Of a stretch of 33,301 nucleotides of DNA, positions 149 through 25,173 are shown one piece after another (within the stretch, counting starts at the first letter, position 1; each line of letters begins with the position of its first letter). Origin of the DNA: Bacteroidaceae bacterium (GTDB lineage Bacteria; Bacteroidota; Bacteroidia; Bacteroidales; Bacteroidaceae); contig JAFXVU010000197.1 of NCBI GenBank assembly GCA_017534705.1, positions 1 to 33,301 on the forward strand. Direction: 5' to 3'. A program made the translations under genes and the position numbers. The notes below the pieces were generated by a model. The model searched no databases, was not told the DNA's origin, and saw only the letters and a program-made list of their open reading frames with translations.

Positions 149-2425
149 TTAGAAATTCAGCGACACATGAACCAAGAAGTGAATAGGTGCCTGGCAAGAA
201 TAGGTGGACCAAGACCAGAAACCAGCATCGCCATCATGGAAAGCCTTTACCTTACCGCCATCCTGCTTGAAGTACATAGAGCAACTACCATTACTCTCGT
301 ATTTCTCATCGAAGAGATTATAAACGGTGGCACCCACAGTGATTCTTTTCACTCCCTTCAACTTGAAACTATATGAAAGGTCAAGGTTGCTCACAAAATA
401 GGCATCTATCATGGCGCTGATATTCTCTCCTGTAGCCTCATCCACATAAGACTGGAAATTGGAATTGGTCATATACTGTTTGCTGACATATTGGCTCATC
501 AGCGATGCTTTCCATCCCTTGTACTCATAACTGAAGATGTTGTTGAGAATGAAATCGGGAGAATAGGCAAGGTGGGTAGAGCCCACATTTACCGGTGTCT
601 CGTTCCAATTCTCATCCACTACATTCAAACTCATATTCTTTGCACGGTTTTTACTGAGGGTGGCATTCAGGCTCCATACAAATCCGTCAAAGGGGCGTAC
701 CTGCAATTCAGCTTCAAGCCCCATGCGGTAACTGTCCTTGATGTTGCGAGCTATCATCTCGCCATTTGAGTCCTGAGCACCAGTCAGCACAAACTGGTTA
801 TCATAGTCCATATGGTAGAAATTGAGTCCGAAATCCACATATCGGGAATTGAACTTATAGCCCACCTCTAGGTCATTCAGACGTTCTGACTCAGGCATAA
901 CCTCTTGCGATTCAGCCATCTGGTCCTCAAAGTCGTTTCGGGTTGGTTCCTTATGCGCTATACCGTAAGAGGCATAGACCTGGTGACCACCACCTATCTG
1001 ATAGGAAAGGCCGAACTTAGGGTTGAAGAAATCATAGGTAGCATCAATGGCAAAGGGACGCTGGTCATGGTTGTCATCAAATTCTTGTGAACTTCCCGTC
1101 ATCTTGTAGTTGACGTGACGGTACTGTAAATCAACATACCCTACAAGACCTTTGTAAATCTTGTAGTCCACCTTACCGTAGATATTACCATCTATTTTCT
1201 TGCCATTGTTATCATAATAGGTATGATCGGGGTTGATACCTCCCTTGAATTCACGTACCCATTGCAATGTGCCATAGTGGTCAGCATCGTGTTTGTTCCA
1301 AGCACCCCCAAGGTTGGCATTTAACCTACCGTTGCTGTAGTTGACAGATGCCACAGCACCATAAAAATCCCCGTCAATATTCTTCCGTCGTACAAGGTCA
1401 GTCTTTGAACCATTTTCTGAATCAAGCAAGTATTTGTACAGTTTCTGGCTTTCCTTGTATTGCTCGTAATATCCATAATTGTTGGTGTAGTGAAGGCCGA
1501 CATTAAATTGAAACGCTTCTGATAGGGATTGGTTCCAAAGCAATTGATAATGTTGTTGGTGGAAATAGTCGATTTGATTGTCATAATAGGCTGTTTTTCC
1601 ATCAGCGGAAGTGTAAGTGCCAGAAGGATTGTAGCGTCGGCCGAAGGTTTTCCATTGTTCCTTAGAAGAATAGTCCCATGCATGATAGGTGCGTTCTGTG
1701 CCATTGGTGGTGATGAACTTCAGCAAGGTGTTGCGCGAAAAGTAGCCTGCTTGAATAAAGTAGGAATTGAGGTCTGCTGAAGCGCGGTCGATATACCCAT
1801 CACTGCCAATATTGGAGAGGCGACCTTCCATAAACCAATGGTTACCCAGCAAACCTGAGCCGAAGTTCAAGGTTTCTTTATGTGTTCCGTAAGAACCGCC
1901 AGAAGCATCTACACTGAAAAAAGGTGTATATGAGAAGTTTCGTGTCTGCATGTTGATGGATGCGCCAAAAGCACCAGCTCCGTTGGTAGATGTTCCCACT
2001 CCTCGCTGCACCTGGATGTTCTCTACTGAGGACGTGAAATCGGGTACATCCACAAAATACAAATATTGCGATTCTGAGTCATTGAGAGGAATGCCATTGG
2101 ATGTGATATTGATTCGAGTGGGGTCGGTTCCTCGGATACGGATTCCTGTATAACCTATACCCGTACCTGCGTCGCTACTGGTCACCACCGAGGGAGTGAA
2201 CTGCAAAAGTGAGGGGATGTCCTTACCGAAATTGGTTTCTTTCAGTTCTTCCTGACTGATATCACGAAACGCAACGGGCGTTGTCTTGGTGGCTCTTGTT
2301 GCCACCACCTCTACACCTTGAAGATTGATGAGTCTCAGACTGTCGTTTTTTTGTTGTGCATCGGTTTTTACCGCCACCGACATGGCAACGGCAGTACATA
2401 CTGCCATGAAAAATACTCTTCTCAT
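149..2425 (-). CDS. TonB-dependent outer membrane receptor, predicted thiamin uptake
   Basis: This 758-residue outer-membrane receptor probably imports thiamin or a thiamin precursor using TonB energy. It starts with a signal peptide (MRRVFFMAVCTAVAMSVAV) that ends DAQ, giving a predicted mature N-terminal Gln. Next comes a TonB-box-like stretch near residues 30-45 (GVEVVATRATKT). The plug domain covers roughly 50-160 and carries IRIRGTDPTRINITSNGIPL and the segment ENIQVQRGVGTSTNGAGAFG. A 22-strand-type barrel fills the rest and ends in an aromatic-terminal strand (VHVSLNF). There is no SusD partner and no N-terminal carboxypeptidase-like extension, so it is a classical vitamin or siderophore-type receptor rather than a SusC. 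The thiamin assignment rests on the TPP riboswitch just upstream and the PnuT-like gene just downstream. The receptor class is secure; the substrate is inference. Confidence 0.9.
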   Translation of the reverse strand: MRRVFFMAVCTAVAMSVAVKTDAQQKNDSLRLINLQGVEVVATRATKTTPVAFRDISQEELKETNFGKDIPSLLQFTPSVVTSSDAGTGIGYTGIRIRGTDPTRINITSNGIPLNDSESQYLYFVDVPDFTSSVENIQVQRGVGTSTNGAGAFGASINMQTRNFSYTPFFSVDASGGSYGTHKETLNFGSGLLGNHWFMEGRLSNIGSDGYIDRASADLNSYFIQAGYFSRNTLLKFITTNGTERTYHAWDYSSKEQWKTFGRRYNPSGTYTSADGKTAYYDNQIDYFHQQHYQLLWNQSLSEAFQFNVGLHYTNNYGYYEQYKESQKLYKYLLDSENGSKTDLVRRKNIDGDFYGAVASVNYSNGRLNANLGGAWNKHDADHYGTLQWVREFKGGINPDHTYYDNNGKKIDGNIYGKVDYKIYKGLVGYVDLQYRHVNYKMTGSSQEFDDNHDQRPFAIDATYDFFNPKFGLSYQIGGGHQVYASYGIAHKEPTRNDFEDQMAESQEVMPESERLNDLEVGYKFNSRYVDFGLNFYHMDYDNQFVLTGAQDSNGEMIARNIKDSYRMGLEAELQVRPFDGFVWSLNATLSKNRAKNMSLNVVDENWNETPVNVGSTHLAYSPDFILNNIFSYEYKGWKASLMSQYVSKQYMTNSNFQSYVDEATGENISAMIDAYFVSNLDLSYSFKLKGVKRITVGATVYNLFDEKYESNGSCSMYFKQDGGKVKAFHDGDAGFWSWSTYSCQAPIHFLVHVSLNF

Positions 2426-2501
2426 TGTTGAAAAAATTAATAAAAGAAACAGGAGAAGTGGAAATGTTCTTTTAGAGCAAAGGACGACTTACGTCCTGCA
2501 T

Positions 2502-2593
2502 TTATCCAAACTAATCCCTACGCGGGCATTATCCCGATCAGGTCAATGGGTATAATCTCAGCCAATCACAAAATAGGCACCCCTCCTTGATAA
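2502..2593 (-). promoter_or_regulatory. TPP (thiamin pyrophosphate) riboswitch, THI element
   Basis: On the minus strand the conserved aptamer pieces appear in order: GGGGTGCC, GGCTGAGATTATACCCA, GACCTGATC, and GGATAATGCC followed by CGCGTAGGGA. These match the THI-box core. The ends TTATC and GATAA can close helix P1 (2589-2593 with 2502-2506). The aptamer begins a few bases after a canonical promoter and lies about 75 bases before the receptor start codon. A six-base-pair hairpin follows (2481-2486 with 2492-2497) and may be part of the expression platform. There is no long U-run, so translational or non-canonical control is more likely than simple intrinsic termination. High TPP is expected to repress the operon. 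Confidence 0.95.
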
Positions 2594-2601
2594 TTGCGCT
2601 G

Positions 2602-8287: not shown

Positions 8288-8318
8288 ATTGTTATTATTT
8301 TGAAATTATATAACTTTG
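8288..8318 (+). promoter_or_regulatory. Promoter for the 897-residue secreted protein gene
   Basis: TAACTTTG at 8311-8318 matches the Bacteroidetes -7 box, with a weak -33 (ATTG at 8288-8291) 19 bases upstream. The leader to the ATG at 8437 is about 110 bases. A second TAATTTTG box at 8271-8278 could be an alternative start. Confidence 0.55.
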
Positions 8319-8436
8319 CACAGAATATGGGTAATTGGCTGAGAAAATTAGACAAAGGACCCAATCGCACTGTCAATACAACAAAAGGCAGCCATTAAAT
8401 TAAGAGAAATGTTAAATTAATAAATAATACAAACAA

Positions 8437-11130
8437 ATGAAAAAAAGTACTTTTTTGTTTTCATTGTTGCTAAGCGTTGCCACATTAGGTCTTCATGCGC
8501 AGAAGCCTGAATCTGGAACTTACACCATCAGTAATGTTTCCTATTCTGAGGTTACCTTAGCCGACAATCAATTCCTTGGCATAGGAGCGAAGAACGATGA
8601 CGGTACTTACCAGACTTATTCTCTGCAAATGAATCAGCCGGGCACCACAACCGTGTTTGATGTTTATGCCAAACTCGACGAGCTTCTTGCATCTCTTAAG
8701 CAAAACGTCAAAGAGAATTTCCACATTGGTGATGAAATGACACGACTCACTGCTCCCGACATGGCAACTTTAGTGCAACTCGTCAGTGAGGGATACACAA
8801 AAATCAACGTGGAGCCCACCAACACCACTGACGCAGAAGGCAATGCCATCGTAAGATTCAAGGTTGGCGTTCCTACATTCCCCAATTTTATGGACAATGC
8901 GTTCATGACCTTGGTTGAGGCTCAAGGAGCTAGAAGAAGCGGTTTTATCTGGGAATATGCACTCGATGTCCTTGCTGAAGAATATGCCAGTGACCCTGCC
9001 GGACTCTTTATTGTGCAAACAGCTAAAAGATCTTTAGCGCCCATCACATACAGAGCCTATCAAATCAACAACAACGCCCCCGCTGACAGAATACCCGCCA
9101 AATGCAGGTATTACTATATTTGTGCTACCAACAATGGTTCTGTATCCTTCATCAGGGAGTCTTTAGTGAACAACACCAACTACAACACAACACTGTGGAC
9201 TCTCGCTGGTGAAAGTCAGCCTGAAAATGTTGTAAGCGGAGAATACTACATCAAAAATGTGGGCAACGGCAAATACATCAACTATGATGGCACACAAGTT
9301 GCTCAGCCAGACCTCAGCATCCTCAGCCTCAACAATAAAGGAAATGCTGTTTCAAACCTTGAAGTGGGCAGAATCAGAGAGGGCGAAAACATCTACCAAA
9401 TTGACGAACTCAACGTCAACGGCAAGAGTATTTTCGATTACCTCATTAACACCATCAGTCCTGATGAAACTACCATCAAGAACTACACAAAGAGCGAGAT
9501 AAGGTCCAAAAAGGGATTCTACAATGAGGCTTTAGCAAGTGGACAGAATTTCTTCCCCAACTTTGGCTATATCAGAGATTACGAAACTGTGATGATAGCC
9601 GATTGGTACATCAAGAAATTCGGCAAATTGAAGATGCAGGACAATGGAGACGGAACAGTGTCGTTCTTCGTTGATTTACCCCCCATGCCTTACACAGCCA
9701 CATACCTCGAGACATATTTCGGCAGTGCCAGTCTTTGGGAAATACTGAAAAGTTCAGCACTTGTGGAAATCACCGACAACGATGAACATGAATTCGCTGC
9801 CAATCAGCTCGACAAACTGACCCCAGGTAGCCGCTATTACATCATAGCCAACGACGACAATGAGTTTGATTTTGTCTCCGCTACCGATTTCATTTCTGCC
9901 GGTGACAAGGCTAAATGGTCACTTGGTTCGACAGAGGAATTGGTTGCGCTCGGTGGTTACTACAGAGTAGAGAATGCCACAACAGGCAATGTACTGGAGC
10001 TTTGGGGTAATGACGCTTCCACTATAGAAGTATCCTCTGACGACGAAGAGTGCGTAACAAACGCAAGCACCGTCTTCAGCCTCGAACTCAACAACAATGT
10101 CACTGACTATGAGATTATGGGCATGACCAGCCAAGGTGTTGACTTCATGGGTGATTTAGGTGACATGTTGAACGCTCTCGCTCAAAGAGCAGGTCTTGGA
10201 GAATTCCCAAGGATTCACATCAAACCTGTTGGAGATGAGCCTAACAACTATGTGGCTTATTTCGATATGCCTAAGATGACTGACCGCCAGTTCCTCGCTG
10301 TGCTCGCTCTCGTACTCAACGACGTGAAAGATCCTGCCGCCACTGAATTGTTCTTCTCGAACGTTCAGCCAAACAAACGTTACAGTATAGCACAGGTTCC
10401 TGGCAGCACTAAAGTCATTGCAGTGGAAGGCGACCAACCTAACGATTACAACGTATGGAAACTGAGGGAAATCAACAACAATGATGAGTACTTCGCTCTC
10501 AATTTCCCAACCAAGGTTTCGTCTACCGAAGATGGCATCACATACTACTACTGCACACTCAATACAGATTTCGCATACACCATTCCTGAAACAAGTCAGA
10601 TTGTAGGTGCATATGTGGTACCAACAGTCACCAAGGGTATCGCTCATCCTGAATTCATTGGTGGACATGGCATTCAAATACCAGCGAACACACCAGTGAT
10701 TCTCGAAAGCCTCTCTACAGAGGTGACGGAAAACCGCATTGACATCATTCCAGAAGTGACTGATGCCATCGAAATCCCCAACAACTACCTCATCGGTACA
10801 TTGCTTGCTGAACCTATCGAGGCTAACGGACGCAGTCGCGAAAACATCCGCGTGTTTAACATCAGCAGCAAGGGTGTTGTGGGATTCTACAAATACACAG
10901 GTGACACACTCGTGAAGAACAAGGGTTACCTTGACCTCAGCACTGTTACTGATGAACTCGTGAACACTTACACCATGAGTTTCGATGAAATGGGTCCAAC
11001 TGCTATTGACGACATTGATGTTGAGCAGTCCAATGGAAGTGGCGAGATTTACGACATTCAAGGCCGTAAGGTGAACAAACCGAGCAAAGGCCTCTACATT
11101 ATCAACGGCAAGAAAGTTCTTGTTAGATAG
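8437..11130 (+). CDS. Large secreted protein of unknown function with three degenerate tandem modules and a C-terminal sorting-like motif
   Basis: I do not recognise a characterised family. The 897-residue product begins with a signal peptide (MKKSTFLFSLLLSVATLGLHAQ) cleaved probably before Gln22. Three diverged modules follow at about 26-260, 267-500 and 506-681. Each opens with a (S/G)GxYxIxNV-type strand (SGTYTISNV, SGEYYIKNV, GGYYRVENA), has a helical middle, then a strand pair ending in a Val/Phe-rich 'FxVxxPxxP'-like segment. Each then has an RYYI-like strand (CRYYYICATNNG, SRYYIIANDDNE, KRYSIAQVPGST) and a W(T/S/K)L segment. A beta-rich region at about 690-850 includes IPANTPVILES. The end, IYDIQGRKVNKPSKGLYIIN then GKKVLVR, resembles a short type-A T9SS sorting signal. 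There are no enzymatic motifs. It is probably surface-exposed or released, perhaps binding carbohydrate or protein. A 54-codon gene follows 56 bases later. Confidence 0.85.
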   Translation: MKKSTFLFSLLLSVATLGLHAQKPESGTYTISNVSYSEVTLADNQFLGIGAKNDDGTYQTYSLQMNQPGTTTVFDVYAKLDELLASLKQNVKENFHIGDEMTRLTAPDMATLVQLVSEGYTKINVEPTNTTDAEGNAIVRFKVGVPTFPNFMDNAFMTLVEAQGARRSGFIWEYALDVLAEEYASDPAGLFIVQTAKRSLAPITYRAYQINNNAPADRIPAKCRYYYICATNNGSVSFIRESLVNNTNYNTTLWTLAGESQPENVVSGEYYIKNVGNGKYINYDGTQVAQPDLSILSLNNKGNAVSNLEVGRIREGENIYQIDELNVNGKSIFDYLINTISPDETTIKNYTKSEIRSKKGFYNEALASGQNFFPNFGYIRDYETVMIADWYIKKFGKLKMQDNGDGTVSFFVDLPPMPYTATYLETYFGSASLWEILKSSALVEITDNDEHEFAANQLDKLTPGSRYYIIANDDNEFDFVSATDFISAGDKAKWSLGSTEELVALGGYYRVENATTGNVLELWGNDASTIEVSSDDEECVTNASTVFSLELNNNVTDYEIMGMTSQGVDFMGDLGDMLNALAQRAGLGEFPRIHIKPVGDEPNNYVAYFDMPKMTDRQFLAVLALVLNDVKDPAATELFFSNVQPNKRYSIAQVPGSTKVIAVEGDQPNDYNVWKLREINNNDEYFALNFPTKVSSTEDGITYYYCTLNTDFAYTIPETSQIVGAYVVPTVTKGIAHPEFIGGHGIQIPANTPVILESLSTEVTENRIDIIPEVTDAIEIPNNYLIGTLLAEPIEANGRSRENIRVFNISSKGVVGFYKYTGDTLVKNKGYLDLSTVTDELVNTYTMSFDEMGPTAIDDIDVEQSNGSGEIYDIQGRKVNKPSKGLYIINGKKVLVR
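8512..9216 (+). repeat. Protein-level tandem module 1 of the 897-residue secreted protein
   Basis: It encodes residues about 26-260. Landmarks shared with the other copies are SGTYTISNV at the start, VFDVYAKLDELLASL in the helical part, CRYYYICATNNG near the end and LWTLAGES at the boundary. Similarity is visible in protein only; the DNA has diverged. Boundaries are approximate. Confidence 0.55.
9235..9936 (+). repeat. Protein-level tandem module 2 of the 897-residue secreted protein
   Basis: It encodes residues about 267-500. Landmarks are SGEYYIKNVGNGKYI, SIFDYLINTI, SFFVDLPPMPY, SRYYIIANDDNE and KWSLGSTEE, in the same order as in module 1. Boundaries are approximate. Confidence 0.6.
9952..10479 (+). 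repeat. Protein-level tandem module 3 (shorter) of the 897-residue secreted protein
   Basis: It encodes residues about 506-681. Landmarks are GGYYRVENATTGNVL, LGDMLNALAQRAG, VAYFDMPKM, KRYSIAQVPGST and VWKLREINN. It is about 55 residues shorter than the other two copies, mainly in the middle. Confidence 0.55.
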
Positions 11131-11186
11131 GCGTTCTTAGCCAATAGTTTTTATCAACCAGTATTAATTATTGCACGTAAACTGAA

Positions 11187-11351
11187 ATGGATATGAAAAA
11201 ACAATATGAGACACCTTGGTTCGATGTCGAAGATATCGTGACAGAGAAGAGCATTCTTTTGCCTGCTTCGCTACCTACAGATGATGATGAGGAAGTGCCT
11301 GACATGTACGGTAACACACGTGAGGAGAAAACATGGGGTAACCTATGGTAA
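11187..11351 (+). CDS. Small acidic Bacteroidota mini-protein, 54 residues, unknown function
   Basis: The short frame reads MDMKKQYETPWFDVEDIVTE, then KSILLPASLP, an acidic patch TDDDEEVPDMYGN and the end TREEKTWGNLW. An in-frame ATG at 11193 would give MKKQYETPWFDVEDI, which looks like the more natural start and would make 52 residues. The pattern resembles a loose class of very short Bacteroidota proteins: MKK followed by Y-(E/Q)-x-P, a hydrophobic-acidic stretch, a polar acidic tail and a C-terminal Trp. I recall these as common but not functionally characterised. It has no transmembrane helix or classical signal peptide. It lies 56 bases after the large secreted protein and just before a terminator, so the two are probably co-transcribed. 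Reality is supported by position, start context and composition, not by length. Confidence 0.65.
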   Translation: MDMKKQYETPWFDVEDIVTEKSILLPASLPTDDDEEVPDMYGNTREEKTWGNLW

Positions 11352-11388
11352 CAAGCCTTGATTTATCATAACAACGATAATAAAAAGA

Positions 11389-11425
11389 AAGGGATGCCCC
11401 ATGACGGAGCATCCCTTCCTTTTTG
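11389..11425. terminator. Bidirectional terminator between convergent genes
   Basis: AAGGGATGC (11389-11397) pairs with GCATCCCTT (11409-11417). The plus strand continues CCTTTTT and the minus strand continues TCTTTTTATT. It can therefore end both the secreted-protein/mini-protein transcript and the minus-strand lipoprotein transcript. Confidence 0.85.
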
Positions 11426-12440: not shown

Positions 12441-15128
12441 CTACTTAACCAATATTTTCTTGCCATTTCGAATCACAATGCCTCGGTAACTGTCATCGAC
12501 TTTCACGCCCATCAAGTTGTATGTTGCACCTTGCGAACGTTCATCTCCGTCGTCAGCCACACCATCAATGGCATTGGGAACTGTGCAAATCAGTTCGAGT
12601 TTGTCGATATTGCAATTGGCACCAGTGATACTGATACGCAAGATATGCTCACCAGCCTCAAGTTCACGACTTAGAGTGCCTTTGACCACCCTATATGTAT
12701 CCCAGTTGCTATTGCCTGTCTGGGGCACACTTACACGGGCCAATGTGGTCACGGTGCCACCTTCAACCAAACCAATAGTGAAACCTGACCCCGTCACACC
12801 AGATGATACGGTAGCCTCGTAAGAATACCGACCCGCCTCTGTTACATTGATAGAGTATTCCAGCCACTCACCGACAGCCGTATAGCCTATCACATAACCA
12901 CTGCCTGACTTGACGATATCAACACCTTCATTGTCTGTACGGTACTTATTGCTCTCCTCGTCTTTGGCGTCCTGGTCATGGAAAGTGAATCCCTCACCTC
13001 CCCGGTCGAAGTCCTCGGCCTCGAATATACCAGGGATATTAATCGTACCCTTGTGTCCCGTACGTTTGTTGTTGACCACCAAGTTGTAGGATGCGATTTT
13101 GGAGGAATGTCCTTCAGCGTCGAATGCCTCGGCTGTAAAGCGGTAAGTACCTTTGGCTGTCGGGCGATAAGTGTATTCGTATGGCTCAGCACCCAAAGTG
13201 CGTTGGAGGATATTGTCGAGATAAAGCTTCACCTCAGTAATGTTGCTGTTAGGAGACGATGCGTCAACTTTAATAATAGTATTGGTGTTGATGGTCGATG
13301 GTGCCGGGTCGGCCGAGATAGCAATCTTCATGCTTTCATCTACATCAACATGCTTGAATTCGATTTTGTCGATATTGCAGTTGCCTCCAGTGATATTCAG
13401 TCTGATAATCTGAGTACCCTCTTCTAATGGCACAAGCAAACGACCATGGATTGTCCGGTAGTTGTCCCAGTTGTTTTCACGCACACATGGTACCGGCAGG
13501 GTTGGAGTGAGTTCGGTAAATCCGTTTTCACCACTGAGCGAAAGACTAATCGAGGAGTTGGTGGCACCGGAAGACACAGTGGCATCGTATGAATAGATAC
13601 CAGCTTCTTTGACATTGACTGTATATTCCAACCATTCGCCAGTCACAGTGTAACCAATAGCATATCCTCCATTGCCGGTAACAATATCAACACCACCGAT
13701 GTCTCTACGATACGACGTTCCTCCCTGTGAGTCTGAGTCTGAGTCGTGGAAGGACATACCTTCGGCACCTGAGTCGAAATTCTCTGCTTGAACAGTTCCT
13801 GGAAGGTCGATAGCTTCCTTATAGGGCGAACGGGGTTTGTAAGCAGTGAAACCAGAAAGACGCTCATAGGTTGTTCCGTCAGTGGCGGTCACCACAGCTT
13901 TCAGGTTGAATTTACCCATAGTGGTTGGAGTGTATTCTGTCTCGTATGGTGCCTCTGTCATAGTAGTCACCAACTTGTTGTTGACATAAAGGTCGATATG
14001 GTCAATGGTCTTTGTTTTCAGACGAGCATTAACGGTAATAGGAACTGGTTCATTATATGTTACACTGAGTGATGCTGGCTTCACATAAACAGAAGCCTCT
14101 TTCTTCATGCCAGGGAACGGACTTTTTGCATTCTTTGCCGCATCACTCGCCATATACTCACGCAACCAGGCCATGGCGGGACGGTCTTTGCCGTCACGGA
14201 TGATACCAGAGTTACCATCTGTTGTCCAGGTACGACCGTAGATATAGCCCCAAAGCGTGATGCCCGCGCAGTAATCAGCCTCCCACATATATGGAATCTG
14301 CTCCTTGAAGCGTTGCAACTGAAGGTTATCGTCAGAGGTGCCAATGTCATATTCTGTACTGTACATCGGTATCTTGAGTGCATTCTGAATCTCGCGCATC
14401 GCCGACTTGAAATCGTTGACATTCATGTCGGTGAGGTCATGGCTCTGGCATCCATAAGCATCAATTGGAGCGCCTGCGTCACGCAATGTGCGAACAAGGT
14501 CGATAAACTGGGAACGCTGCCATTGGAATGTATTATAGTCATTATAGATAAGAATGGCATCGGGCCAGCGTTCATGAGCCATCTCGAAAGCCTTGATAAT
14601 CCAATCGTAACCAGTACGTCCATCACCACCAAGAGCAGCCTTGTAGGGGGCTGGCTGATGACCAGCGACAGCCTCGTTGACCACATCTATCATCTCCATA
14701 TTGGGATAGTGCTTCTTCAGGGCGTCCATCCATTCCACAATAGCCTTGTACTGCTCGCTTGTGGAAAGATTGTCCATCCATCCGGGATACTGGGCGCCCC
14801 AGATCAAGCAATGGAACTTGAAAGGGAAACCATGCTGACGGGCATAGTTGTAGGCTCTGTCACTACCATCAAAGTTAAAACTACCACGACGCGAACCTTC
14901 TATCGACGACCACTTTGATTCGTTTTCGCAGGTAATCTGGTTCCAAAGCGTGTAATACTTTTCATTACCATAATCCACATTATAACTTGTCGTGATATTT
15001 CCCAAAAACTTATCGGGATTCGATGAAAGTTGCGCACAAGCTTTCCCAGACGACAAAACACCTGTGGCAGTAAGTGCTAAAGTCAAAAGATTTCCGCGTA
15101 ATGCGGAGATGTGAAAATTTCTCATCAT
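12441..15128 (-). CDS. Secreted modular GH10 endo-1,4-beta-xylanase with two Ig-like/CBM6-like pairs
   Basis: This 895-residue enzyme should cut the backbone of xylan outside the cell or at the surface. The signal peptide ends ACAQ at residue 33. The GH10 catalytic domain spans about 35-335. It carries the acid/base region MIDVVNEAVAG (Glu152) and the nucleophile region YSTEYDIGT (Glu259), plus GITLWGYIYGRTW. An Ig-like linker domain (about 350-432) and a CBM6-like module (about 440-592) follow. A second Ig-like domain (about 600-690) and a second CBM6-like module (about 698-848) complete the tandem. Both CBM copies share AE(N/D)FD, GVDIV, GEWLEY and GxCNIDK-type segments. The C-terminus NLMGVKVDDSYRGIVIRNG then KKILVK is a sorting-like motif. 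No SusCD pair or other xylan gene lies beside it, so it is a free-standing locus. The CBM6 assignment is from sequence pattern. Confidence 0.93.
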   Translation of the reverse strand: MMRNFHISALRGNLLTLALTATGVLSSGKACAQLSSNPDKFLGNITTSYNVDYGNEKYYTLWNQITCENESKWSSIEGSRRGSFNFDGSDRAYNYARQHGFPFKFHCLIWGAQYPGWMDNLSTSEQYKAIVEWMDALKKHYPNMEMIDVVNEAVAGHQPAPYKAALGGDGRTGYDWIIKAFEMAHERWPDAILIYNDYNTFQWQRSQFIDLVRTLRDAGAPIDAYGCQSHDLTDMNVNDFKSAMREIQNALKIPMYSTEYDIGTSDDNLQLQRFKEQIPYMWEADYCAGITLWGYIYGRTWTTDGNSGIIRDGKDRPAMAWLREYMASDAAKNAKSPFPGMKKEASVYVKPASLSVTYNEPVPITVNARLKTKTIDHIDLYVNNKLVTTMTEAPYETEYTPTTMGKFNLKAVVTATDGTTYERLSGFTAYKPRSPYKEAIDLPGTVQAENFDSGAEGMSFHDSDSDSQGGTSYRRDIGGVDIVTGNGGYAIGYTVTGEWLEYTVNVKEAGIYSYDATVSSGATNSSISLSLSGENGFTELTPTLPVPCVRENNWDNYRTIHGRLLVPLEEGTQIIRLNITGGNCNIDKIEFKHVDVDESMKIAISADPAPSTINTNTIIKVDASSPNSNITEVKLYLDNILQRTLGAEPYEYTYRPTAKGTYRFTAEAFDAEGHSSKIASYNLVVNNKRTGHKGTINIPGIFEAEDFDRGGEGFTFHDQDAKDEESNKYRTDNEGVDIVKSGSGYVIGYTAVGEWLEYSINVTEAGRYSYEATVSSGVTGSGFTIGLVEGGTVTTLARVSVPQTGNSNWDTYRVVKGTLSRELEAGEHILRISITGANCNIDKLELICTVPNAIDGVADDGDERSQGATYNLMGVKVDDSYRGIVIRNGKKILVK
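12585..13037 (-). repeat. CBM6-like module, copy 2 of the xylanase
   Basis: It encodes residues about 698-848 (AEDFDRGGEGFTFHDQDAKD at the start, GEWLEYSINVTEAG in the middle, GANCNIDKLELI at the end). Together with the preceding Ig-like domain it is an internal duplication of the copy 1 unit. Confidence 0.8.
13353..13811 (-). repeat. CBM6-like module, copy 1 of the xylanase
   Basis: It encodes residues about 440-592 (AENFDSGAEGMSFHDSDSDS at the start, GEWLEYTVNVKEAG in the middle, GGNCNIDKIEFKH at the end). It is clearly homologous to copy 2. Confidence 0.8.
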
Positions 15129-21949: not shown

Positions 21950-24900
21950 TTATTTCGACTTTAGGTATTTCTTACCATTCTTTATATATAGTCCAAGGGG
22001 AGAATCGCTTGTGATATCCGACTCACTAACCTTGATTCCTTGAATGGTATAAACGCCAGAAAGCAGAGATTTATCGTCAAAAGTAACAGCATCAACAGAC
22101 GACACCATATCGATATAATCTGTAACCGAAGGATAAAAGCCAATATCATGTATGACGACAGTGGAGTTGGTTGCTGTCAAACCGAAGATGGTTGCACCAA
22201 TGCAAATATCAGGACGGTCACCTGTAAGATTATCAGCAAGTCCTGTCTTTGTCATATCCCATGCTATCACCACATCCGAGCCAAGTGCCTTGCCTACATA
22301 GGAAGGCGCAACACTACTTCCACGATTCACTCCGTTCAACCACCACAAATACGATGCATTGGCATCACTGCTCAATCCTGTTCCCCTCACGATCAAAAAC
22401 TTGTCATTCTTTCCGATAGTGTACTGCTTGTCGGTATAGTTGAGGGTAAGACACACATTATTAGCCCCTGTGGTGTTGCTGACGACTATGGTATTATCCT
22501 CGCTATTATATTTGATGTTACTCCTTTTCAATCGGTTGGTGTCACCAGTTGACCATTCGGAGGCAGTGAACTTATAGGCGTGGTTATCGTAGCCATGCAA
22601 CAAACGCACATAATACCAACCTGGACAAACTGTGCTGGAGGATGCCTGTAGTTTCACTACAAACTTGGTTTTCACATTACCCTTCTCGTCGTAAATCAAC
22701 TCGTCAGGCAATGGATACTCCACATTATAGAAACCGTTATCATCTGCTCCAGCTGCATTGTTCACAATCTCGATGTTGGCCAATGCCACTCCGTCCACAT
22801 ACAATGTACCTTTCCTGCCACTGTCAGCAGTGGTGAAACGGCACATAACACTCAGGCTGTCCTTCAACTGCATTGGATTAGAGAGTGTATACTGGATATA
22901 ACCATTCCTTTGGACGTCACGGTAATACTCATCCCTGAACATGCCAGTAGAGGAGCCCTGGCTATACGAGGCGTCATGCCCTGCCTCACTCTGTTGCTCG
23001 CCTGTGCCCACGAAGTCGATGGTCCTGTCCTGTAAGTCTTTTTCTAACGCATCTTGACGAGCCATATCACTGTTGGCAAAGGCCTCTTCTGTCTGCTGAT
23101 ACCAATAACATTGGTAACGAGCGTGGTGGATGCTGTAGAAAGGGACTAAGTTCAACTGAGTCCATTTTTCCACCCCTTCTCGCGAAGCATTACTAACATC
23201 AATTGAAAACAACAACTTACTTAAATCCAATTCCTTAATGCGATTCAGCACCTGTTGACGCTCCCCTAAGAGCAATGGAGCGCTCGACAAAGAAAGAGGC
23301 TTGCCCATAGAACCAGGAGCATGGTCCATTCTGCCCTCGCCGGCATACTCATTCTGCAATTTCTCGTAAATCAAACCGCTTCCATCATTATTCCTTACCG
23401 CTGTTGTCTGGGCCGCAAGCAAAATCGGGCCATATTCAAATGCCACATAATCATTATAATGAGGACAACTTTCCACCCGCAATTCCATAGGCAGATTCAC
23501 TTCTATGACATCGCCCTCTTTCCATTTCCTGTTTATTCCCGCATAGGATGCTGTACCTTTCATGACCGCGACATTCACGCTTGCTCCGTTAACAGAGATG
23601 CTATAGTCCTCTGTGACCCACCAAGGATGACGGATGGCAATGGTATATTCGCCGGACTTACCTACTGTCAGGCGCGTTTTCTGCTCGTAAGGATAGTTCG
23701 TTTCTTGTTTGATGGAGAAATCATCATTATTCAACTCGCTGGCAGTAAACAGGTTGACATACAATGTGGTCGTTCCGTCATGTGTGTAGATGAAGTGTCC
23801 ATACTTGCTGTGATTTTCCATGCCTGTCCCCACACAGCACCACATTCCCTGGTTTACTTGAGAATAGATTCGATAACTTTGGGGACGAAGTGAGGTAAAA
23901 TACACATATCCACCCGTCTTAGGATCCTGGGTGGAAAGGATATGGTTCCACATCGCATACTCGTAGAAATCAGCATATTTCGCATTGTGGGTATAATCGA
24001 AAAGCATCTCAGAAAGTTTCGACATATTATTGGTATTGCAACTCTCTGGACCGTCTGTATTTGTGATATACTGAGAAGCATTGCTCGGAGCGAGGAAATG
24101 CTCAGAAACACTATTTCCACCAATACAAACGGTTCGGTTGGTTGCCACATCATCCCAGAAATTCCGAGCGGCAATCCTATACGAGCCAGCGCTGGCACTG
24201 GTCTCACCTATCCGCTGGAATCCAATGAACTTAGGGACCTGAGTGTTGGCATGCTGACCATTGAGGAAAGAGGTGTTATAGCGATTCTCCGCCCCTTGCA
24301 TACCATCAATTTCATACTGATGGCTGTATTTTTTCGCCACATTCAGGTATTTGGCATCTCCAAAAATCTGATAAGCGTCAAGCATTGACTCGTTCATGCC
24401 GCCATGCTCCCATCCTAGCACATTCTGCATGTCTTGAGTAGAAAGTTTGCTCACCACATTCACACTCCAGTCGGCCAGTTTATGGAAACACTCCTTGGCA
24501 ACTTCACTGCCGGCGTAAACCCACGCATCGCGGAGGCCAGCCAATACCTTGTGCTGGCAATAAAAAGGCACCCAGCCCCCGTAATTGCGGAATTCTGTCA
24601 GATTATTCTTATAGAGCCCTGTCCAAACTTGGTTGATGGGTTGTCCTCCAATAAAGCCATACAATCCCTGGGTGTTATCGTCGTAGGCATCCTGGCAGTC
24701 TTTCATCACCTCCAAGCAGTAATCAAGACGTTCCTTGATTTTCGATTTCATCACGTCATCATGACAAGCGGCATAAGCAAGTGAAAGGGCGGTGATATAA
24801 TGACCGCCTACATGTCCCTCTAGCGACCAATTGCTCAACCCCCAGTTGCTGAAAGAAGGATATTTGTTGACCCATCCATAATACTTGCTGCCTGATTTCG

Positions 24901-25129
24901 ACGACAAGCCTGACTGACGGACAAAAGGTGTGAGCAAACGATTGGCGTCATACTGCAGAAGTACTTCGATGTTTTTATCCATGGCAGTCTTGAACGGCCC
25001 GTCGAGTAAAGTCACCTCGTCAAGGTCGAAATGCTGGGGATAAAGCTGGCTCTGCGATTTGGCAGAATTTGACAGGGCCAGCAGCGACACTGCCAGCAAT
25101 AAACGATAAACCATACTATTGCGTTTCAT
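21950..25129 (-). CDS. Secreted GH127/GH146-type beta-L-arabinofuranosidase (DUF1680 family)
   Basis: The ATG at 25127-25129 is chosen; the frame extends three codons upstream to a TTG. The 1059-residue protein has a signal peptide ending near NSAKSQ. The catalytic (alpha/alpha)6-barrel region spans about 35-560, starting QHFDLDEVTLLDGPFKTAMD. Known GH127 enzymes use a zinc-bound cysteine. The equivalent residues seem present: Glu362 and Cys364 (GPESCNT), and the pair Cys431-Cys432 (MWCCVGTGMENHSKYG), with Cys431 the likely nucleophile. Glu343 (GGNSVSEHF) is a candidate acid/base. A beta-rich domain near 700-830 (DUF6805-like by eye) and a further C-terminal domain follow. The end (GVYTIQGIKV, then GLYIKNGKKYLKSK) is a sorting-like motif. 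It should release L-arabinofuranose from plant polysaccharide or glycoprotein. It lies 44 bases after the 366-residue secreted protein gene. Confidence 0.87.
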   Translation of the reverse strand: MKRNSMVYRLLLAVSLLALSNSAKSQSQLYPQHFDLDEVTLLDGPFKTAMDKNIEVLLQYDANRLLTPFVRQSGLSSKSGSKYYGWVNKYPSFSNWGLSNWSLEGHVGGHYITALSLAYAACHDDVMKSKIKERLDYCLEVMKDCQDAYDDNTQGLYGFIGGQPINQVWTGLYKNNLTEFRNYGGWVPFYCQHKVLAGLRDAWVYAGSEVAKECFHKLADWSVNVVSKLSTQDMQNVLGWEHGGMNESMLDAYQIFGDAKYLNVAKKYSHQYEIDGMQGAENRYNTSFLNGQHANTQVPKFIGFQRIGETSASAGSYRIAARNFWDDVATNRTVCIGGNSVSEHFLAPSNASQYITNTDGPESCNTNNMSKLSEMLFDYTHNAKYADFYEYAMWNHILSTQDPKTGGYVYFTSLRPQSYRIYSQVNQGMWCCVGTGMENHSKYGHFIYTHDGTTTLYVNLFTASELNNDDFSIKQETNYPYEQKTRLTVGKSGEYTIAIRHPWWVTEDYSISVNGASVNVAVMKGTASYAGINRKWKEGDVIEVNLPMELRVESCPHYNDYVAFEYGPILLAAQTTAVRNNDGSGLIYEKLQNEYAGEGRMDHAPGSMGKPLSLSSAPLLLGERQQVLNRIKELDLSKLLFSIDVSNASREGVEKWTQLNLVPFYSIHHARYQCYWYQQTEEAFANSDMARQDALEKDLQDRTIDFVGTGEQQSEAGHDASYSQGSSTGMFRDEYYRDVQRNGYIQYTLSNPMQLKDSLSVMCRFTTADSGRKGTLYVDGVALANIEIVNNAAGADDNGFYNVEYPLPDELIYDEKGNVKTKFVVKLQASSSTVCPGWYYVRLLHGYDNHAYKFTASEWSTGDTNRLKRSNIKYNSEDNTIVVSNTTGANNVCLTLNYTDKQYTIGKNDKFLIVRGTGLSSDANASYLWWLNGVNRGSSVAPSYVGKALGSDVVIAWDMTKTGLADNLTGDRPDICIGATIFGLTATNSTVVIHDIGFYPSVTDYIDMVSSVDAVTFDDKSLLSGVYTIQGIKVSESDITSDSPLGLYIKNGKKYLKSK

Positions 25130-25173
25130 AATCGTCAAGTTAATTAAAAGTTTTTATAATCGTTGCTAAAGCG

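Follow-up and report, generated by a model that had tools for sequence, protein, structure and literature searches.

The window, by which we mean the whole stretch of 33,301 nucleotides analysed, contains on the plus strand a mini-protein gene of 54 codons (11187–11351), recognised by its reading frame, its orthologues, a profile match and its dN/dS. The gene starts with an ATG at 11187, ends with the TAA stop at 11349–11351 and encodes a product of 54 residues, MDMKKQYETPWFDVEDIVTEKSILLPASLPTDDDEEVPDMYGNTREEKTWGNLW. The gap between it and the end of a large gene at 11130 is 56 nt, and a terminator-like hairpin (11382–11424) starts 30 nt beyond its stop. The original prediction had placed a frame behind the large gene and before a terminator, and these coordinates were borne out. 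The hairpin, scored on the minus strand, is listed without a strand; its stem lies between an A-run and a T-run and could be usable on both strands.

The large gene (8437–11130, plus strand) encodes a secreted protein of 897 residues with a putative signal peptide, a RicinB-lectin-like domain (PF14200, E 5e-6) and a tail similar to that of type A cargo of the type IX secretion system (T9SS). Its start, MKKSTFLFSLLLSVATLGLHAQ, is a typical signal-peptide-like stretch as judged by eye. The tail resembles a C-terminal domain (CTD) of T9SS cargo (11041–11127, plus strand; ..EIYDIQGRKVNKPSKGLYIINGKKVLVR); as KGLYIINGKKVLVR, it lines up with eight other tails, the D/E-like motifs (GxYxV and the near-terminal lysines) being assigned by eye. 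The protein ends in G-x-Y-I-(V/I)-N-G-K-K, which we read as the layout of D and E motifs described for type A CTDs (PMC10202324). It differs from type A cargo in that its tail has no significant match to PF18962 (14.1 bits, below the cut-off of 27), and TIGR04183 found no match in the protein. For an Ig-like fold of the CTD, AlphaFold gave a pLDDT of 37, too low for use. As would be the case for type A cargo, the genome of the window encodes the T9SS gene sprA (SprA_N, E 7.5e-223), in an open frame 2549 aa long.

Two other proteins of the window, a GH10/CBM6/CBM35 xylanase (12441–15128, minus strand) and a GH127 protein (21950–25138, minus strand), also have a CTD-like tail of this type, and no mini-gene was noticed behind either. 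Elsewhere in the window, a TPP riboswitch (2499–2594, minus strand) immediately precedes the gene for a TonB-dependent receptor (149–2425, minus strand), and this receptor is therefore likely a thiamine-related transporter.

The consensus of Bacteroides-type promoters is well established. A promoter of this type (8289–8318, plus strand; TTG, 19 nt, TAACTTTG) precedes the cargo gene, and its TAACTTTG is kept in four species. TAnnTTTG is absent from the 250 nt upstream of the mini-gene. From a promoter before the cargo gene, none before the mini-gene and a terminator after it, we infer a two-gene unit, in which the 897-residue gene and the mini-gene are probably transcribed together up to the hairpin at 11382–11424.

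A multi-copy family of mini-proteins

The 54-codon frame encodes a genuine protein. Conservation of the frame in close relatives, which the original prediction had proposed to check, was borne out: each of the four genomes of the genus has an orthologue in this position, with 94–100% amino acid identity; the genus members with visible titles are metagenome-assembled genomes (MAGs). The bias at synonymous sites, also proposed there, is clear: between the window and genome G001 there are 11.8 synonymous changes over 30 sites and 6.2 nonsynonymous changes over 132 sites, and the pairwise dN/dS of 0.07–0.17 within the genus indicates purifying selection. For five additional sets of orthologues, drawn from paralogous mini-genes, the values were 0.11–0.32. 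Neither range counts one pair that lacks nonsynonymous substitutions and two pairs whose synonymous sites are saturated. When the four genomes were searched at the DNA level, each yielded one full copy of this mini-gene, in the case of G002 as two overlapping pieces.

Paralogues were found with a profile (A2) built from eight sequences, the seeds being taken by their similarity to the mini-protein of the window (P0001) and not by their context. Within the taxonomic family of the window, this profile has matches at E ≤ 0.1 in 235 of 301 genomes, from 24 of the 30 genera sampled. The genome of the window has nine copies at E ≤ 1, and the highest number per genome is 29, in G180. A second profile (A4), at E ≤ 0.001, matches two of 296 genomes across the phylum and eight of 247 across the order, the window's own being included in both counts; the order-wide search revealed many copies in family f160. 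Thus, an unnamed multi-copy family of mini-proteins exists in T9SS-bearing Bacteroidales, mostly in the family of the window. Among the models of Pfam and NCBIfam none matches P0001, and no two of 25 members of the mini-protein family match the same model.

An origin of the mini-genes from phages or plasmids was considered and rejected: a degenerate DNA pattern for the mini-protein N-terminus was absent from viral contigs, plasmids gave no relevant match, and the PHROG matches to the family were one-member only.

The members share a common anatomy. In 48 copies, an N-terminus of the form K-x-Y-x-x-P is followed by an alternating hydrophobic/acidic stretch that ends in A-x-S, then by an acidic middle, rich in G, S and N and variable in length, and finally by a C-terminal W-G-N/D-L-W. 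The N-terminal Y..P is present in 47 of these copies, 45 have a W..W motif close to the C-end, and only six contain cysteine; the mini-protein of the window carries both family motifs, as Y-x-x-P and W-G-N/D-L-W. The class of MKK-Y-x-x-P mini-proteins to which the frame had been assigned therefore exists, as a multi-copy family. By eye, no hydrophobic signal stretch was evident in any of the 48 copies, so the mini-protein should remain in the cytoplasm. AlphaFold, with four near-identical sequences as input, returned no fold (pLDDT 60), and the combination of two short motifs with a variable acidic linker suggests a disordered adaptor with two binding ends.

Pairing with probable T9SS cargo genes and the conserved junction

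Of the mini-genes with enough upstream sequence to be scored (37 copies from genomes G000, that of the window, G180, G236 and G302), 33 directly follow a gene with a type-A-like tail (Y-D-x-x-G-R ... G-x-Y-I-V-N-G-K-K); three of these genomes belong to one genus or a close one, so that the copies are not independent. The family is thus not scattered, as had been supposed. The gap between cargo gene and mini-gene ranges from -4 to 251 nt, with a median of 39. Since the cargo bodies vary (RicinB-like, BspA LRR, NAGLU, BNR sialidase, dockerin and GEVED), the mini-protein tracks the tail more than one type of cargo. The pairing of CTD and mini-gene recurs with very divergent sequences in family f160 and in genome G091, in which the mini-gene at locus L222 lies behind a CTD that is, by eye, of textbook form.

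In addition, a search for sprA (PF14349) detected it in 22 of 23 genomes whose mini-protein matches are strong, versus five of 20 whose matches are weak or missing, a contrast whose Fisher P of 2e-6 is only indicative, given that the genomes were hand-picked and are related. The exception is G180, an 86%-complete MAG with 29 copies, in which no sprA was found. Within genomes, distances between mini-proteins correlate with those between the CTDs (r 0.46, P 0.005; r 0.52, P 0.0002), and the correlation with the preceding stretch of the cargo is about as strong (r 0.40 and 0.55).

In a sample of downstream regions, a mini-gene was found behind about five of 81 CTD tails in G000 and about 15 of 41 in G236; most CTD genes lack one, and the export of CTD proteins as a whole can therefore not depend on the mini-protein. 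A few mini-genes follow genes without a CTD, for example one pyruvate formate-lyase-like gene.

Some arrangements deserve separate mention. A branch of mini-proteins with the pattern MKEYQKPEF...SWSDEETDEAL...WE..FWE.RE includes L136 (G000:C130), behind a gene for a pyruvate formate-lyase-like glycyl radical enzyme; mini-genes of this branch have aligned neighbours in other members of the genus (L079, L081 and L082), instead of a CTD gene. Large CTD genes are clustered, with mini-genes in between, in G003:C8:7454-15947 and G000:C233:2975-6669. On G000:C233, a CTD gene apparently follows a mini-gene at a distance of about 130 nt.

The nucleotide sequence is unusually conserved at the junction of the two genes (11085–11264, plus strand), which comprises the last 15 codons of the cargo gene, the 56-nt gap and codons 1–27 of the mini-gene. 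These roughly 180 nt are near-identical in four species, whereas the flanks are mostly 72–84% identical, reaching 87% upstream in the comparison with G002. Runs identical in three species measure 83 nt and 63 nt in the junction, against 54 nt in the neighbouring tRNA gene. Among degenerate codons whose amino acid does not vary, 34 of 37 are identical in four species within the junction, compared with 128 of 413 in the remainder of the cargo gene (P about 1e-14). For codons 28–54 of the mini-gene, nine of 20 degenerate codons are identical, which does not differ from the background. A weaker conservation is seen at 8402–8550, covering the 5′ UTR and the signal-peptide codons of the 897-residue gene (over 150 nt, a fraction of 0.89 is identical in three species). 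RNA folding of 11080–11270 was no better than that of shuffled sequences for either strand, and Rfam gave no match at the junction.

Two technical causes of this conservation were discarded. Contigs 55 and 414 of G002 (loci L022 and L025) both break off inside the mini-gene and overlap exactly over 87 nt, which resembles a k-mer break at a stretch of shared identical sequence; an assembly artefact is rejected by the identity also found within single contigs of G001 and G003, and extra genomic copies are rejected by the single full copy per genome in the four genomes of the genus.

Similar tracts occur at other loci. Set C of the orthologues shows comparable conservation in the gap and at the start of the mini-gene, which is absent from sets A, B, D and E. 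Within one genome, L100 and L108, with unrelated cargo, share a similar tract that begins at the end of the CTD and reaches roughly codon 20 of the mini-gene, as do L120 and L126 between genomes. In the pairs L100/L101, L103/L106 and L110/L112 the identity extends through the entire mini-gene, and the pair L115 and L119 has no such near-identical tract. We read the tracts among paralogues as the result of recombination or gene conversion of a CTD–mini-gene module rather than of a universal RNA constraint; for the locus of the window, with a single copy per genome, either recombination or constraint may apply. The association with the T9SS, the multi-copy nature of the family and the conserved junction had all been overlooked in the first reading of this DNA.

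Candidate roles of the mini-protein

We propose that the mini-protein is a cytoplasmic accessory, co-transcribed with certain CTD-bearing T9SS cargos and serving their export or expression, a proposal for which the chances seem to us evenly balanced. Remaining in the cytoplasm, it would bind the cargo or the translation/export machinery of the cargo through one motif and a constant partner through the other, and would either escort the cargo or signal its synthesis as feedback. This role of escort or feedback, and the binding partners with it, are a guess that we hold to be rather doubtful. From the roles offered by the original prediction, that of a small partner fits best, that of a secreted peptide finds no support, no signal stretch being seen, and that of a precursor peptide gained no positive evidence.

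As a precursor, the mini-protein would consist of an N-terminal leader up to A-x-S and a variable C-terminal half with the Trp motif, processed or modified by a remote enzyme and exported. The conserved N-terminal half, the variable middle and the many copies would suit such a peptide, as would the DNA of L100 and L108, near-identical in the N-terminal half and different beyond it. The terminal W-G-N/D-L-W, however, is conserved as much as the supposed leader, and the placement behind CTD genes would be left without explanation. Moreover, no RiPP maturation enzyme, protease or transporter was recognised among the scanned genes, a part of the ORFs of the window that includes housekeeping genes, the TonB receptor, GH10 and GH127; the earlier remark that no modification enzyme lies nearby agrees with this, and a precursor peptide is unlikely. 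The near-identical tracts between paralogues with unrelated cargo, the copies behind genes without a CTD and the many CTD genes without a mini-gene would all be expected if the mini-gene were independent of the cargo and the modules were simply copied jointly by duplication or recombination. Yet the pairing holds in other families of the order despite very divergent sequences, and the mini-gene co-occurs with sprA, which makes a cargo-independent passenger improbable as well.

Should the junction act mainly as a 3′ regulatory RNA or an element of translation coupling, with the peptide secondary, the identity of some 180 nt at synonymous and intergenic positions, exceeding that of the nearby tRNA gene, would be accounted for. 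This is very unlikely to be the main function, since codons 28–54 evolve as protein, the structure does not exceed that of shuffles on either strand, Rfam is silent and other mini-genes lack a conserved junction. A small acidic gene behind a gene for a secreted protein also recalls immunity proteins or antitoxins; this role is hardly credible and was rejected on the content of the cargo, which comprises glycosidases and repeat adhesins and no recognisable toxins, and the mini-protein goes with the tail and not with one type of cargo. The accessory function thus remains our preferred reading.

Known systems offer partial parallels. Chaperones of type III secretion are folded proteins of about 100–150 aa that bind an N-terminal segment of their cargo. 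As in effector–chaperone pairs, a gene for a small acidic protein adjoins that of a secreted protein, with several pairs per genome; the mini-protein differs in its size of about 54 aa, its probable disorder and its tie to a type of C-terminal signal, and homology to these chaperones is not expected. RiPP precursors have a conserved leader and a variable following segment and occur in multiple copies. The mini-proteins resemble them in the conserved N-terminal half, the variable next segment and the many copies, and differ from them in the conserved C-end, in having no recognised maturase as neighbour and in their position behind CTD genes.

Prevotella-specific families of small proteins have been reported from a microbiome catalogue in a MetaRibo-Seq study (PMC7324362), and like the mini-proteins they are short, conserved and usually unannotated; no T9SS-linked family is mentioned in the passages covered. 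Such catalogues may contain members of the family with the T9SS link unremarked. A review of T9SS effectors from 2023 (PMC10202324) describes the system as needing only a CTD on cargo targeted to the periplasm and, in the passages covered, mentions no cargo-linked small protein. The open-licence literature, covered mostly by titles and abstracts, likewise gave no description of a T9SS-linked mini-protein. What appears new here is the family of mini-proteins linked to T9SS cargo, unannotated conserved families of small proteins as such being already known.

Taken as a whole, a cargo-linked cytoplasmic mini-protein for a subset of T9SS cargo, together with recombination that has homogenised the junction of CTD and mini-gene across loci and species, is a tentative and rather doubtful picture. 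If it is true, the cytoplasmic side of the T9SS has a component perhaps skipped by annotation for its shortness, and a cargo-linked layer of control or escort, which we have not found described for type IX secretion. The homogenised junction would be a module that joins an unchanged export tail and start of the mini-protein to cargo of different kinds, and would shuffle export tails among the surface adhesins and glycosidases of Prevotella-like bacteria of the gut and rumen.
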